A stretch of 64,000 nt of DNA. It comes from Clostridia bacterium. Its GTDB lineage: Bacteria; Bacillota; Peptococcia; DRI-13; UBA5745. Positions 3,575 to 14,153 of the stretch are shown one piece after another. The first letter of the stretch is position 1, and each line of letters begins with the position of its first letter. A program made the position numbers and the translations under genes. The stretch is taken from positions 186,001-250,000 of the forward strand of contig JAHDPO010000004.1 of NCBI GenBank assembly GCA_018434325.1, written 5' to 3'. The notes beneath the pieces are model-generated. The model saw only the letters and a list, made by a program, of their open reading frames with translations, was not told the DNA's origin and made no database searches.

Positions 3575-6064
3575 ATGGCCCGGCCACGAAAGAAAAGTAC
3601 GGCGAAGAAACAACAGGCGATGCGTTCCGAACTGAAGCAAGACTTAGTTGCTATTGCTTTGTTCGCCATAGGTATTTTTGTGGCCTTCTGTCTCTGGCAG
3701 GTGCCGTCAAGCGGTGAAAAAAATCTCCTGGGGGCCTTAGGTCACGGCGTATATGGCGTCAGTCAGCTTTTATTTGGCCAGGGCAAATGGTTTTTGGCTT
3801 TAGCCTTGATTTTTTTAGGGGCCAGCCAATGGCTGAAGGCCACGGAGCCCGGCAAGGCCCTATATCTGGCTTACGGAGTCGTCACGGCCGCCAGCTGCGC
3901 TATTGCCCATTTGCGGCTGCCGGCAGAACGGCAGCTGTTGGAGGCGGGCCTTGACGGCTTAGGCGGCGGCATTATCGGCGGCGCTTTGGTGCAAGCCAGC
4001 AATCTGCTGATCGGTGTTACCGGCAGCTGGATTTTCTATGTGACTCTGGTCATTGCTTCCCTCTTGGTAATTACCGGCAAGACCTTGCGGGAAGTGGTCC
4101 TGGATGCCGGCAGCAAAGCTAAAGGCATCGCCCAGTCCGCCCAGAGCGGTCTGACGGTTTTGACCAGCCGCAGGGAAGAGGATGATTATCGGGATCGGGA
4201 GAAAACCATTCTGAAAAGTTTAAATCTGCCCATCGATACCGAGTTAAGAAGAGATAAAAAAGGCGGCGGATTAAAAAGAGGACAGGCTTGCCCACAGAGG
4301 GACGAGCAGCCGGTTCAGAGCGCCCCGGATCAATCCGCTTCTATAGATGAGTTAAGCCAGCGGGGCATTACCCTGCATCTGTATAATGAGCATACAGGGG
4401 ACAAGGGAGCGGAGGCGGCTCCAAAGCCAGAAGACAGGAGTCCTGCCGCTCAGGCTCAAACTCCCGGCCAAGGTCATCCGGCTGCGGCCAGGCCTTTTGC
4501 CGCAGGTCAAAATGACCGGGCTAAGACTGCCGGGGATAAAGAGGCAAAAAAAGACGAGGACTTTAAACCTCAGGCTCAGGTGATCAGTTCTGGCGGCGCC
4601 GGCAATTTCCCGGAAATTCATCGCATATACCGGCTGCCCAGCCTGAACTTACTGCAATCGGCGCCCCGGGTCAAAAGCCAGCGGCTCAACAAAGACATTA
4701 CGGATAACGTGCGTATTTTAGAGGAGACTCTGGCCAGCTTCGGCGTAAAAGCCGTGGTAACCCAGGTCAACCGGGGACCCAGTATCACCCGCTTTGAGCT
4801 GCAGCCTGCCGCCGGCGTAAAAGTAAGCAAGATTGTTAATTTATCTGACGATATTGCTTTAGCTTTGGCAGCGGCTCACATCCGTATAGAAGCGCCCATT
4901 CCCGGCAAAGCTGCTATTGGAATCGAAGTTCCCAATGCCGAGCGGGCTTTGGTCAGTTTGCGGGAGATTTTGGAAGATCAGGTCTTTGCTCAGTCGAAAT
5001 CCAAATTAACCTTTGCTTTAGGGCGGGATATTGCCGGCGCACCCATTGTGGCCGATTTAGCCAGAATGCCCCATTTGCTGATTGCCGGCTCCACCGGTTC
5101 CGGCAAAAGCGTTTGCATGAACGCCCTGATTGCCAGCATCTTGTTTTCCTCTACTCCTGATGAAGTAAAACTGATGATGGTCGATCCCAAGATGGTGGAG
5201 CTGTCCAATTATAACGGCATTCCCCATTTGATCCATCCTGTGGTTACCGACGCCAAAAAGGCGGCCAAGGCTTTGCGCTGGGCCGTCCATGAGATGGAAA
5301 AACGCTACGATACCTTTGCCAAAGCGGGAGTGAAGGATATTGCCCGTTATAATGCCTGGCTGGCCGAGCAGGAGATGGAGGACAAACCTTCTCCCATGCC
5401 CCAATTTGTGATTTTGATCGACGAGCTGGCCGATTTGATGCTGGTGGCGCCGGCGGATGTGGAAGACGCTATCTGCCGCCTGGCCCAAATGGCCCGGGCT
5501 GCCGGCATGCATCTGGTGGTTGCCACCCAGCGGCCCAGCGTGGATGTGATCACCGGCATCATCAAAGCCAATATTCCCTGCCGCATTGCCTTTGCCGTAT
5601 CTTCCCAAACGGACTCCCGGGTTATTCTGGACATGGCCGGCGCCGAAAAGCTTTTAGGCCGGGGGGATATGCTGTATTCCACTTTAGAGAATCCCAAGCC
5701 CGTCCGGGTCCAGGGCGTTTACGTTTCCGACAAGGAGATCGAAAGCCTCACGGAATACATCAAGGCTGCCAACATCCAGCCGGAATACCGGGAAGATGTG
5801 GTCAGCGGCGAGGAGGAAAGCCGGGAGGAAGAAAACGAGGAACTGGACAGCTTGCTGCCGGAAGCCGCCCGGATTTTTATCGAAAGCGGTCAGGCTTCCA
5901 TATCCCTTTTGCAGCGGCGCTTGCGGATCGGTTATACCCGGGCCGCCAGGATTATTGACCAGATGGAGGAGCAGGGTATTGTGGGCGGTTATGAGGGCAG
6001 TAAGGCCCGGGCCATCCGCATGACCATGGCCCAATATGAGGAGCGATTCGGCAAAAAAGAGTAA
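3575..6064 (+). CDS. FtsK/SpoIIIE family DNA translocase
   Basis: An 829-residue membrane-anchored DNA pump that moves chromosomal DNA through the division or sporulation septum. The first ~180 residues are basic and then hydrophobic, consistent with the four-helix FtsK_4TM anchor. A charged, low-complexity linker runs to about residue 330. The motor has Walker A GSTGSGKSV near 503-511 and Walker B VILIDELADLM near 613-623. The last ~65 residues form the winged-helix gamma domain that reads orienting sequences (LLQRRLRIGYTRAARIIDQM). An ATG at 3554 overlaps the rnj stop, but the ATG at 3575 has a better placed AGGAGAAAGGGG. It could serve as FtsK, SpoIIIE or both. Confidence 0.93.
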   Translation: MARPRKKSTAKKQQAMRSELKQDLVAIALFAIGIFVAFCLWQVPSSGEKNLLGALGHGVYGVSQLLFGQGKWFLALALIFLGASQWLKATEPGKALYLAYGVVTAASCAIAHLRLPAERQLLEAGLDGLGGGIIGGALVQASNLLIGVTGSWIFYVTLVIASLLVITGKTLREVVLDAGSKAKGIAQSAQSGLTVLTSRREEDDYRDREKTILKSLNLPIDTELRRDKKGGGLKRGQACPQRDEQPVQSAPDQSASIDELSQRGITLHLYNEHTGDKGAEAAPKPEDRSPAAQAQTPGQGHPAAARPFAAGQNDRAKTAGDKEAKKDEDFKPQAQVISSGGAGNFPEIHRIYRLPSLNLLQSAPRVKSQRLNKDITDNVRILEETLASFGVKAVVTQVNRGPSITRFELQPAAGVKVSKIVNLSDDIALALAAAHIRIEAPIPGKAAIGIEVPNAERALVSLREILEDQVFAQSKSKLTFALGRDIAGAPIVADLARMPHLLIAGSTGSGKSVCMNALIASILFSSTPDEVKLMMVDPKMVELSNYNGIPHLIHPVVTDAKKAAKALRWAVHEMEKRYDTFAKAGVKDIARYNAWLAEQEMEDKPSPMPQFVILIDELADLMLVAPADVEDAICRLAQMARAAGMHLVVATQRPSVDVITGIIKANIPCRIAFAVSSQTDSRVILDMAGAEKLLGRGDMLYSTLENPKPVRVQGVYVSDKEIESLTEYIKAANIQPEYREDVVSGEEESREEENEELDSLLPEAARIFIESGQASISLLQRRLRIGYTRAARIIDQMEEQGIVGGYEGSKARAIRMTMAQYEERFGKKE

Positions 6065-9448: not shown

Positions 9449-11038
9449 TTGGTTAATTCATTTTTCGGCGAACTTCAAATAGATCGCAAAATTGTCAACG
9501 CTCTGGAGGAAATGGGCTTTGAAGAGCCTACGCCTATTCAGGCTCAGGCAGTACCCTTAGTTACCCAGGGCCATGATTTGATTGGACAGGCTCAAACCGG
9601 CACAGGCAAAACGGCAGCCTTCGGGATTCCCATTGTGGAAAAGGTGGAAGCCTCCGTAAACAAGATCCAGGCTTTTATCCTGACCCCCACCAGGGAGCTG
9701 GCTATCCAGGTGGCCGGCGAGATCGCCAAGATCAGCAAATTCAAGCATATCCGGGTGCTGCCGGTTTACGGCGGCCAGCCCATCGATCGGCAAATTCGCT
9801 CCCTGCGCAGCGGCGTCCATATCGTCATCGGCACGCCGGGCCGTATTTTGGATCATTTGGATCGCAAGACCCTGCGCCTTGACCACGTGAAGGTCATGGT
9901 CATCGACGAGGCCGATGAGATGCTGGATATGGGCTTTGTCGAGGATATCGAAGCAATTATGGATCAGGCGCCGGAAAGCCGGCAGACCCTGCTTTTTTCG
10001 GCCACCATGCCGGATCCCATACGGCGTCTGGCCAATAAATATTTAAAAGAACCCAAGTTTGTCAGCGTTAACAAAGAAACCGTTACCGTACCGCAAATCC
10101 AGCAGCGCTATTATGAGGTCAATCCTTCCAATAAGATCGAGACCCTCTGCCGCATACTGGATTGCGAGAACTACGACGGCGTCATTGTTTTTTGCCGCAC
10201 AAAAAGAGGCGTGGATGATCTGTCGGCAGCCCTGCAATCCCGGGGTTATGAAGCCGAGGGTCTCCATGGCGACTTGACTCAGGCCCAGCGGGACAAAACC
10301 ATGAAGGGCGTCCGCAGCGGCGACACGGATATTCTGATTGCCACCGACGTGGCAGCCCGGGGTATCGATATCGACCGGATCAGCCACGTCATCAACTACG
10401 ATATACCTTTGGATCCCGAATCTTACGTTCACCGCATCGGCAGAACCGGCCGGGCCGGCCGGGAAGGTGTGGCGATTACTCTTATCGTACCTCAGGAATA
10501 CCGGCATTTGCGGCTGATCGAGAAGCTGATCCGCAGCCGGATCACCCGTTCTTTGCCGCCTACATTTAAGGAAATGCTGGATCTACAAAAACGGACAGTC
10601 CGGGAAAACGTAGAAAATATTTTACAGGAAGAAAACCTGGAGCCTTACCGGGAAATTGCGGCAGAGCTTACCGAGTACTTCGATAAAGAGGATGCTCTGG
10701 CGGCCTTGGTTCGCTATACCTTTAACCTGAAGGGTATCGACCTGATGGATAAGGAAGAAAAACAACGGGCGGATTTCGGTAATACAGGGGCTAAAAACGG
10801 CATGGTCAGACTTTTTATGACCATCGGACGCCAGCAAAACATCAAGCCTGGCGACCTGGCCAAGCTGATCAGCCAGGAAGTGGATATGCCGGCTCATTTA
10901 GTAAAAGGCATCAATATTTATGACAAATTTACTTTTGTGGAAGTGCCGGAAGAGTTTGCCCACCGGGTGATTCACATCATGGATCGCATGCATATCAACG
11001 GTTGGCGGGTTGCGGTTCAGACAGCCAGGGCCCGTTAA
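9449..11038 (+). CDS. DEAD-box RNA helicase with DbpA-type RNA-binding domain
   Basis: A 529-residue ATP-dependent RNA helicase. It has a Q motif (EEPTPIQAQAV), Walker A AQTGTGKT near 47-54, DEAD near 153-156, SAT in LLFSATMP, and HRIGRTGRAGR of motif VI. The final ~85 residues (from about RLFMTIGRQQNIKPGDL) match the DbpA RNA-binding fold, which suggests rRNA or ribosome assembly substrates. The start is TTG, 6 bases after AAAGGAGT, with no nearby ATG. The gene lies between pncC and recA, which are often adjacent elsewhere. Confidence 0.94.
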   Translation: MVNSFFGELQIDRKIVNALEEMGFEEPTPIQAQAVPLVTQGHDLIGQAQTGTGKTAAFGIPIVEKVEASVNKIQAFILTPTRELAIQVAGEIAKISKFKHIRVLPVYGGQPIDRQIRSLRSGVHIVIGTPGRILDHLDRKTLRLDHVKVMVIDEADEMLDMGFVEDIEAIMDQAPESRQTLLFSATMPDPIRRLANKYLKEPKFVSVNKETVTVPQIQQRYYEVNPSNKIETLCRILDCENYDGVIVFCRTKRGVDDLSAALQSRGYEAEGLHGDLTQAQRDKTMKGVRSGDTDILIATDVAARGIDIDRISHVINYDIPLDPESYVHRIGRTGRAGREGVAITLIVPQEYRHLRLIEKLIRSRITRSLPPTFKEMLDLQKRTVRENVENILQEENLEPYREIAAELTEYFDKEDALAALVRYTFNLKGIDLMDKEEKQRADFGNTGAKNGMVRLFMTIGRQQNIKPGDLAKLISQEVDMPAHLVKGINIYDKFTFVEVPEEFAHRVIHIMDRMHINGWRVAVQTARAR

Positions 11039-12188: not shown

Positions 12189-12217
12189 TTGACAGACAAA
12201 CAGTTTAAGCGTAAAAT
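12189..12217 (+). promoter_or_regulatory. Strong sigma-A promoter upstream of the rny leader
   Basis: A perfect TTGACA (12189-12194), a 17-base spacer and TAAAAT (12212-12217, 5 of 6) predict a start near 12224, about 267 bases before the RNase Y start codon. Confidence 0.75.
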
Positions 12218-12223
12218 AATCTT

Positions 12224-12434
12224 GGTAGATAAGCTTATTTCTGTTTTGCAAATGATAGATTGGATAGGCCGCAGGCACCTATATATATCTTGGTTTGGGG
12301 GCTTCCCATGTCCGGGTTGAAAATATAAATTATGGTGAATGAGAACTTTTATCGAAAAGTTTTTGCTTATGCGGGAGTCGTCTAACTATGTTTCGGGCAG
12401 AAATCAGGCCGGTTTTTAACCAGCCTGTTTTTTT
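12224..12434 (+). ncRNA. Candidate structured leader RNA or small RNA between recA and rny
   Basis: The 354 bases between recA and rny have no convincing gene but form a unit: a strong promoter, about 210 nt of transcript and a terminator. Internal pairings include AGAT..ATAGG with CCTAT..ATCT (about 12257-12290), and AACTTTT-ATCG-AAAAGTT (about 12344-12361). A long-range match of TAGAT near the 5' end with GTCTA at 12380-12384, plus ATAAGC (12229-12234) with GCTTAT (12365-12370), would give a closed rod. I could not match it to a riboswitch class, SRP RNA or tmRNA. A 6S-like RNA is possible by length and layout only. Confidence 0.45.
12405..12434 (+). terminator. Rho-independent terminator in front of rny
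   Basis: CAGGCCGGTT (12405-12414) pairs with AACCAGCCTG (12418-12427), with one C-A mismatch, and is followed by seven T. It lies 56 bases before the rny start, and no promoter is visible between, so rny seems to depend on read-through. Confidence 0.75.
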
Positions 12435-12490
12435 ATGCAATGATGCAATTTTTTTTGGAAAGAAAATTTTTAAGGAAAGGAGGAGAAAAG

Positions 12491-14038
12491 TTGCCTTATA
12501 CATCAATATTATTAGCTGTAGCCGTAGCGGCTGCTTTGGCTATCGGTACTTTGGCAGGCTATATTTTGCGGAAGAATATTGCCGAAGGGAAAATGGCTGC
12601 CGCCGAGGTCCAAGCTGAAAAATTATTGGACGAAGCCCGCAGAGCTGCCGAAGGTGTTAAGAAAGAAACCCTGGTTGAAGCAAAAGAAGAGGCTTATAAA
12701 TTAAAAAATGATATGGAGCAGGAAATTCGCGAGAGGCGAAACGAAGCTCAGCGCCAGGAACGCCGCTTAGTCCAAAAGGAAGAGACCTTGGACCGCAAAG
12801 CGGATCAGATGGAAAAGAAAGAGGAAGTCCTTCAGAAGGTAGAGCAGGAGCTGTCCAAGCAGAAAAAGAGCTTGACGGAGCTGATGCAAAAACAACTGCA
12901 GGAGCTGGAGAGAATTTCCGGTCTTTCCTTCGACCAGGCCAAGGATTTGCTGCTTTCCCGGGTGGAATCGGAAATCAAGCACGAAACAGCCATGATCATT
13001 AAGGAAAACGAAGCTCAAGTAAGAGAAGAGAGCGACCGTCGGGCAAGGAATATTATTTCATTAGCTATTCAGCGTTGCGCTGCCGATCATGTGGCCGAGA
13101 CTACCGTTTCGGTGGTAGCCTTACCCAATGACGAGATGAAGGGCAGGATCATCGGCCGGGAGGGCCGCAATATCCGGACGCTTGAAACGTTGACCGGTAT
13201 TGATCTGATCATCGATGATACGCCGGAAGCAGTGATCTTGTCAGGCTTTGACCCGGTTCGCCGGGAAGTGGCCAGAATCGCTTTAGAAAAACTGATTTTG
13301 GATGGACGTATCCATCCCGGCCGTATTGAAGAAATGGTTGAAAAGGCCAAGAAAGAAGTAGAGCAAAGCATTCGGGAGGAAGGCGAGCAAGCCACCTTCG
13401 AGACGGGAGTCAATGGTCTGCATCCTGAACTGATCCGGCTTTTGGGCCGTTTGCGCTATCGTACCAGTTATGGCCAGAATGTATTGAAGCATTCTATTGA
13501 AGTGGCTCATTTGGCCGGTATGATGGCGGCGGAAATTGGCGCCGATGTGGCCTTGGCCAAGCGTTCCGGTTTATTGCACGATATCGGCAAGGCCATCGAT
13601 CATGAGATTGAAGGTTCCCATACGGTAATCGGTGCAGATTTGGCTAAAAAGTACAGGGAATCCGAGGAAGTCATTCACGGCATTGCCGCCCATCACGGTG
13701 ACGAGCCTTTCCGTTCTGTGGAAGCCGTCCTGGTGGCAGCTGCCGATGCCATATCGGCTGCCCGGCCCGGCGCCAGGCGGGAAACTCTGGAAGCTTACAT
13801 TAAGCGTCTGGAGAAGCTTGAGGAAATCGCCAATGCCTTTGAAGGCGTGGACAAATCTTATGCCATTCAGGCCGGACGGGAGATCCGCATTATCGTTAAA
13901 CCTGATAAAGTAGACGATGCCGGCTCCGCCCTGATGGCCAGGGAAATCGTTAAGCAGATCGAGGGCAATATGGAATATCCGGGTCAGATCCGGGTAGTAG
14001 TGATCCGGGAAACCCGAGCTGTGGATCACGCCAAATAA
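12491..14038 (+). CDS. rny: Ribonuclease Y
   Basis: A 515-residue membrane-anchored endoribonuclease that starts decay of many mRNAs. It has an N-terminal span (about 4-25), a long charged coiled coil (30-165), a KH domain with [16 protein letters not shown] near 216-232, and an HD domain with [12 protein letters not shown] near 360-371. TTG at 12491 is chosen because AAAGGAGGAG ends about 6 bases upstream and the resulting N-terminus ([11 protein letters not shown]) fits the family. An ATG 51 bases earlier would add an atypical charged extension. With RNase J and a DEAD-box helicase, this window carries much of the RNA decay machinery. Confidence 0.95.
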
Positions 14039-14101
14039 AGCCGGTCATACTAATCTGCCTGCAACTTTAGCCAGTGGCAATCCTATACGGCAGAATTCCA
14101 G

Positions 14102-14153
14102 GTCCCCTGTTCAGCAGGCTATAGATTGCAGCGCTGACAGGGGACTGTTTTTT
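14102..14153 (+). terminator. Rho-independent terminator after rny
   Basis: GTCCCCTGTTCAGC (14102-14115) pairs with GCTGACAGGGGAC (14133-14145), with one bulged base, and is followed by TGTTTTTT. It ends the rny transcript. The ymdB start lies 32 bases beyond with no clear promoter. Confidence 0.75.

Follow-up and report, generated by a model that had tools for sequence, protein, structure and literature searches.

A conserved, structured leader RNA ahead of the RNase Y gene in a clostridial order, most probably a transcription attenuator

The DNA analysed here, termed the window, is a stretch of 64,000 nucleotides from a Clostridia bacterium (GenBank assembly GCA_018434325.1, contig JAHDPO010000004.1, positions 186,001 to 250,000 of the forward strand). 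It carries rny, the gene for ribonuclease Y, with recA upstream and a TIGR00282 phosphoesterase gene downstream. A DEAD-box RNA helicase gene (9449-11038) lies immediately before recA and rny; in NCBIfam it matches the degradosome helicase CshA best, at 610 bits, just under the 646 cut-off. RNA-decay genes are therefore found on both sides of recA. Between rny and the TIGR00282 phosphoesterase gene, at 14101-14152, the strong hairpin GGUCCCCUGUUCAGC...GCUGACAGGGGACU is followed by a T-run; this second terminator-like element could uncouple rny from the TIGR00282 gene.

From the letters of the window, the original prediction had placed directly ahead of rny a promoter, a transcript of about 210 nt and a strong terminator separated from the gene by 56 nt, with no second promoter in between. 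Reading the sequence located each of these elements at the positions proposed, and the parts of the locus are as follows (all on the + strand).

12189 to 12217, +, promoter of the rny leader, TTGACA-17-TAAAAT, read from the sequence (-35 TTGACA at 12189-12194, -10 TAAAAT at 12212-12217, spacer 17 nt); conserved with its 17-nt spacer in 25 of 25 order genomes
12221 to 12434, +, leader RNA of about 210 nt, conserved and structured, single copy per genome and directly 5' of rny; shows covariation and belongs to no Rfam family
12227 to 12236, +, 5' arm, candidate antiterminator strand in the predicted nascent fold
12237 to 12246, +, 5' strand of the closing helix P1, partner 12395-12404 (AUUUCUG : CAGAAAU plus G-U pairs)
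12250 to 12265, +, 5' strand of the second long helix, partner about 12380-12393; double changes in 4 of 13 pairs among the five genus genomes
12344 to 12361, +, central hairpin ACUUU...AAAGU, kept in 5 of 5 genus genomes, with 100% of cells paired and zero double changes
12395 to 12404, +, 3' strand of the closing helix P1, directly adjoining the terminator
12405 to 12434, +, intrinsic terminator: stem CAGGCCGGTTTTTAACCAGCCTG at 12405-12427 with one C-A mismatch, then T7 at 12428-12434
12476 to 12483, +, Shine-Dalgarno AAAGGAGG of rny, read from the sequence
12491 to 14038, +, rny, ribonuclease Y, the controlled gene (NCBIfam TIGR03319 RNase_Y, 780 bits)

The promoter scores 11 out of 12, making it the best site of the region, and is predicted to start transcription at about 12224. 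No second sigma-A-like promoter was found between the terminator and rny (12435-12490), and 56 nt separate the end of the T7 run from the TTG start codon at 12491. The terminator segment is nearly invariant within the genus; a simple terminator scan had missed it because of the C-A mismatch in the stem. Given its composition, the leader RNA shows no exceptional stability (minimum free energy z = -0.73), and the case for it therefore rests on comparison.

The claim that the leader matches no known riboswitch or other RNA family was borne out by scans with Rfam 15. At gathering score there were zero matches in the whole window, permissive filters returned only chance matches in the leader region, and no Rfam match was obtained at the leader in the rny loci of relatives. 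No Rfam 15 riboswitch or leader family either reached its gathering score or gave a convincing permissive match, and a known family of either kind was ruled out on this basis. In Peptococcaceae BRH_c4a (L090), matches to TwoAYGGAY RNA (RF01731) flank rny at 124-282 and 5736-5893. Neither an attenuator nor a structured RNA class at rny was described in the literature searched, and rny is absent from the main text of two ncRNA-discovery papers. The rny leader is thus a structured-RNA class absent from Rfam 15, a new RNA class of a known kind of regulator. The size of the leader and its long-range pairing between 5' and 3' parts had raised the idea of a 6S-like RNA, that is, a divergent or second 6S RNA. 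This part of the original prediction did not hold: the single 6S match of the genome (RF00013, 96 bits), a canonical 6S RNA of which most relatives have a homologue, lies elsewhere, at G000:C44:252764-252945, about 2.8 kb past the window's end, and the 6S model gave no match at the leader even with permissive filters, making this explanation highly improbable.

When 60 relatives were searched by BLAST, the leader segment was matched in each of the four remaining genus genomes, with identities of 91% and 73-74%; the only two further hits, in G014 and G015 (L006 and L007), proved on inspection to be short chance matches at unrelated places and were rejected. In the genus alignment the promoter, the terminator and the blocks GATAGATT, GCCGCAGGC, CTATATA, ATCTTG and TCCGG are conserved, and their surroundings less so. 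The leader lies directly before rny in all five genus genomes, two of which have a CoA-transferase/hydrolase-like gene upstream in place of recA. Since the leader is kept before rny where the upstream gene differs, the element travels with rny. Over these five sequences 92.4% of the cells are paired, and double changes occur in 11 cells as against 4.1 +/- 1.6 after shuffling; the covariation score was reached in 0 of 500 shuffles and collapses when partners are slid by 1-3 columns.

The same region holds a 22-codon frame (ATG at 12252) on which ribosome stalling might decide termination, as in leader-peptide attenuation. This frame has no further support in the window and no Shine-Dalgarno, a stop shortens it in G004, and its ATG is missing in G001 and G003. 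As the frame is not conserved, the explanation was rejected, and we give it hardly any credence.

Elsewhere in the family, a covariance model (R1) that finds the leaders of the genus also finds a full-length one before rny in a second genus (G005, E = 1.4e-6). Another family member, G006 (L048, about 1330-1380), lacks the leader body and presents only the promoter, some 20 nt and the terminator, for a transcript of about 45 nt. This loss could reflect a natural deletion or an assembly error; some of the genomes compared are incomplete metagenome assemblies.

The survey was extended to the order by reading the region upstream of rny in all 25 genomes. A TTGAC-17-TAnnnT promoter precedes rny in every one of them, and a leader of about 190-230 nt ending in an intrinsic terminator in 24; the twenty-fifth, G006, retains the short terminator. 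The terminator often lies 10-30 nt from the rny ribosome-binding site, and because the T-run abuts that site in many genomes there is no room for another promoter. A covariance model built from family f8 alone (R2) was run over whole genomes and, in 16 of 16 order members from families other than the window's, gave exactly one match per genome, at rny, with E 1e-6 to 1e-39; seven of these genomes supplied the f8 sequences from which it was built. Outside the order, R2 had zero matches in 299 phylum genomes. A further model, R3, likewise finds the 16 members, but neither R2 nor R3 recognises the window's RNA or its family, and joining this RNA to the order-wide family by covariance model was abandoned. 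What links it to the order-wide leaders is position, promoter and architecture: it shares the place before rny, the TTGACA-17-TAnnnT promoter and a closing helix adjoining the terminator.

An alignment of the R2 matches (A8) comprises 51 pairs with 87.9% of cells paired. Double changes affect 26 of the 51 pairs, compared with 13.0 +/- 2.3 after shuffling, and the covariation score of 0.344 (shuffled, 0.184 +/- 0.012) was attained by none of 500 shuffles. It is to be noted that A8 was fitted to the model and is hence biased towards the structure; a sliding control (0.06-0.10) and helices checked by hand agree with it. In P1, 7 of 8 pairs are changed on both sides in A8, that is, in the rest of the order, and the hand-checked helices are UCUGCCA:UGGCAGA, UCCGCCA:UGGCGGA, UUUCUACCA:UGGUGGAAA and UUCCAUC:GAUGGAA. 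The covariation on which the original prediction had made a functional leader depend is thus present both within the genus and in the rest of the order.

The leader body diverges strongly between families and has few invariant unpaired bases. In other orders of the class the P1 sequences are quite different (UAGAAAUUAC:GUAAUUUCUA, UGAAAUUGC:GCAAUUUCA) and the layout is the same; R3 matches one rny leader from these orders, at 5e-4 genome-wide. Among named Firmicutes (L080-L159), a TTGAC-16/18-T....T promoter lies no more than about 400 nt upstream of rny in 79 of 80 cases. A terminator before rny also occurs in several unrelated lineages (Desulforamulus L083, Desulfoscipio L089, Dethiobacter L081, L127, L137), and in these the 5' end of the leader is complementary to the terminator or to the sequence just before it, for example GUGUGGGU...AAAGAG : CUCUUU...ACCCACAC in L081.

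In the window, the predicted pairs 12233-12236/12406-12409 continue P1 (12237-12246/12395-12404), and 12227-12230 would pair with 12412-12415, so that the 5' arm could pair with the left arm and loop of the terminator. For family f8, RNAalifold prefers over the terminator a helix of 13 pairs in which the start of the transcript is bound to the terminator left arm and loop, for example GGAGAAUUACGGUU with AACCGAGUUUUCU. In G019, where the terminator reads AACUGAG, the 5' arm is changed to GGAGAAUUCAG, a compensatory change (CAG of the arm facing CUGAG of the terminator). In all order members tested, blocking the right arm in folding left the left arm with a predicted partner among the first ~25 nt. 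Likewise, when the fold was limited to RNA transcribed ahead of the right arm, nt 1-30 were the sole upstream partner of the left arm in 24 of 24 leaders (mean probability 0.60-1.00).

The specificity of this pairing was examined with three tests, chosen in succession, of which the last two are the stronger; all folding is prediction. A duplex test of the 5' arm against the terminator gave p < 0.05 in only 9 of 24 leaders. In a whole-leader test, about 15 of 24 order leaders had an energy cost of blocking the right arm below that of their shuffled versions (p <= 0.05); 6 of 12 leaders from other orders of the class passed at the same threshold, and 8 of 70 unrelated terminators. With the 17-nt 5' arm alone shuffled, the real arm was better in ensemble energy in 17 of 24 (p <= 0.05). 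In the window itself the pairing is present, but shuffling the arm gives matches just as good (p = 0.57 and 0.32), and folding prefers the terminator state by 6.3 kcal/mol. Judged from these predictions, antiterminator pairing is well supported by comparison for the order at large and only probable in the window's genome.

The original prediction had left two choices: control of rny by read-through of a structured leader, or a separate small RNA made at this place. The comparative evidence supports the former and makes the latter less likely. A trans-acting or structural small RNA, with rny transcribed through leakage of the terminator or from recA, would account for a strong promoter and a strong terminator of its own around some 210 nt, and P1 and the terminator are able to coexist in the window's predicted fold. 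Set against this, the element is single-copy and syntenic with rny in every genome examined, even where the upstream genes change, many genomes have its terminator right up against the rny ribosome-binding site, its 5' arm fits the terminator in the majority of genomes, and G006 has retained promoter and terminator without the body. We consider a separate small RNA quite improbable.

A ligand riboswitch is the other explanation to be weighed: the body would be an aptamer for a small molecule or ion, and binding would stabilise P1 and cause read-through into rny. Transcriptional ON riboswitches such as pbuE use an exchange of strands between P1 and the terminator, which is the layout seen here, and the leader body is folded and covaries. 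Most riboswitch classes, however, control several genes, and in the model searches the leader was never found before any gene other than rny; moreover, as noted, the body differs greatly from family to family, few of its unpaired bases being invariant, and no Rfam class matches. A riboswitch thus appears unlikely. Occurrence once per genome and only at rny is the pattern of autogenous leaders more than that of metabolite riboswitches.

We conclude that rny is preceded by a real, conserved and structured leader, unreported in the literature searched, that is most probably a transcription attenuator. Computation shows the promoter, the terminator, their conservation, the covarying helices, the single copy at rny and the overlap of the two pairings. 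Because the leader is syntenic with rny, its helices covary, its terminator lies near the ribosome-binding site and a 5' strand competes for that terminator, we favour, with reasonable though not high confidence, a cis-acting attenuator with a 5'-terminal antiterminator strand. RNA polymerase would start from the promoter at 12189-12217 and transcribe the leader of about 210 nt, in whose fold the long closing helix P1 would enclose a structured body. The terminator left arm, just 3' of P1, could then pair with the transcript's initial nucleotides and so extend P1. As long as the 5' arm held the left arm, the terminator would stay open, allowing read-through and production of RNase Y; with the 5' arm unavailable, be it that P1 has not formed or that the arm is bound away or cut, the terminator would form and transcription stop before rny.

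We infer that read-through of the leader terminator varies, and likewise what makes it vary. RNase Y itself, already suggested in the original prediction, is a plausible signal and the likeliest one, put forward tentatively because the leader occurs only at rny, an autogenous pattern, and because RNase Y of B. subtilis cuts its own 5' UTR; by cutting or binding the leader, excess enzyme would favour termination. A bolder idea, which we regard as rather doubtful, is that these leaders form a widespread, previously undescribed family in which RNA-decay activity is read as survival of the transcript's 5' end: a cut by RNase Y would remove the 5' arm, the terminator would form and rny would be turned off. 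If true, a transcription attenuator would be acting as a sensor of RNA-decay capacity.

RNase Y is the main RNA-degrading enzyme of these bacteria and initiates most mRNA decay in Firmicutes. Knowledge of its control comes mainly from B. subtilis, in which the stability of the mRNA is the point of control. The leader described here is most likely a switch, not described before, by which the amount of RNase Y is set. A conserved rny attenuator would mean that in clostridial lineages the level of this enzyme is set as early as transcription, and one testable locus would then be available for studying how bacteria measure their RNA-decay capacity.

Among the closest known systems is rny of B. subtilis, which, like the gene in the window, is transcribed from a sigma-A promoter of its own and preceded by a long leader, of 164 nt in B. 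subtilis (PMC10303841). There, too, the product controls its own mRNA: RNase Y lowers it by cutting in the 5' UTR, mainly within the first 50 nt of the leader, where cuts cluster, and in the early ORF (PMC10303841). Control in B. subtilis is exerted on mRNA stability, these cuts being followed by RNase J1, and the paper describes no terminator or antiterminator (PMC10303841), whereas the window's leader ends in an intrinsic terminator. The 5' UTR of E. coli rne (Rfam rne5), through which RNase E is autoregulated, is likewise a structured, conserved leader limited to the gene of the main decay-initiating RNase. Both RNA and enzyme are unrelated to those studied here, and rne control works through mRNA decay without transcription attenuation (PMC10303841, discussion). 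In ON riboswitches, for example the pbuE adenine riboswitch, the 3' strand of P1 competes with the terminator left arm and closure of P1 means read-through, which resembles the rny leader. The latter differs in having no known aptamer and no Rfam match, in being confined to one gene and in using the extreme 5' end of the transcript as the competing strand. Finally, the ribosomal-protein leaders of Firmicutes (L10, L20, S15 and others) are likewise limited to the operon of their own product and combine fast-diverging sequence with conserved architecture; at rny, by contrast, the controlled gene encodes an RNase and any binding protein is putative.
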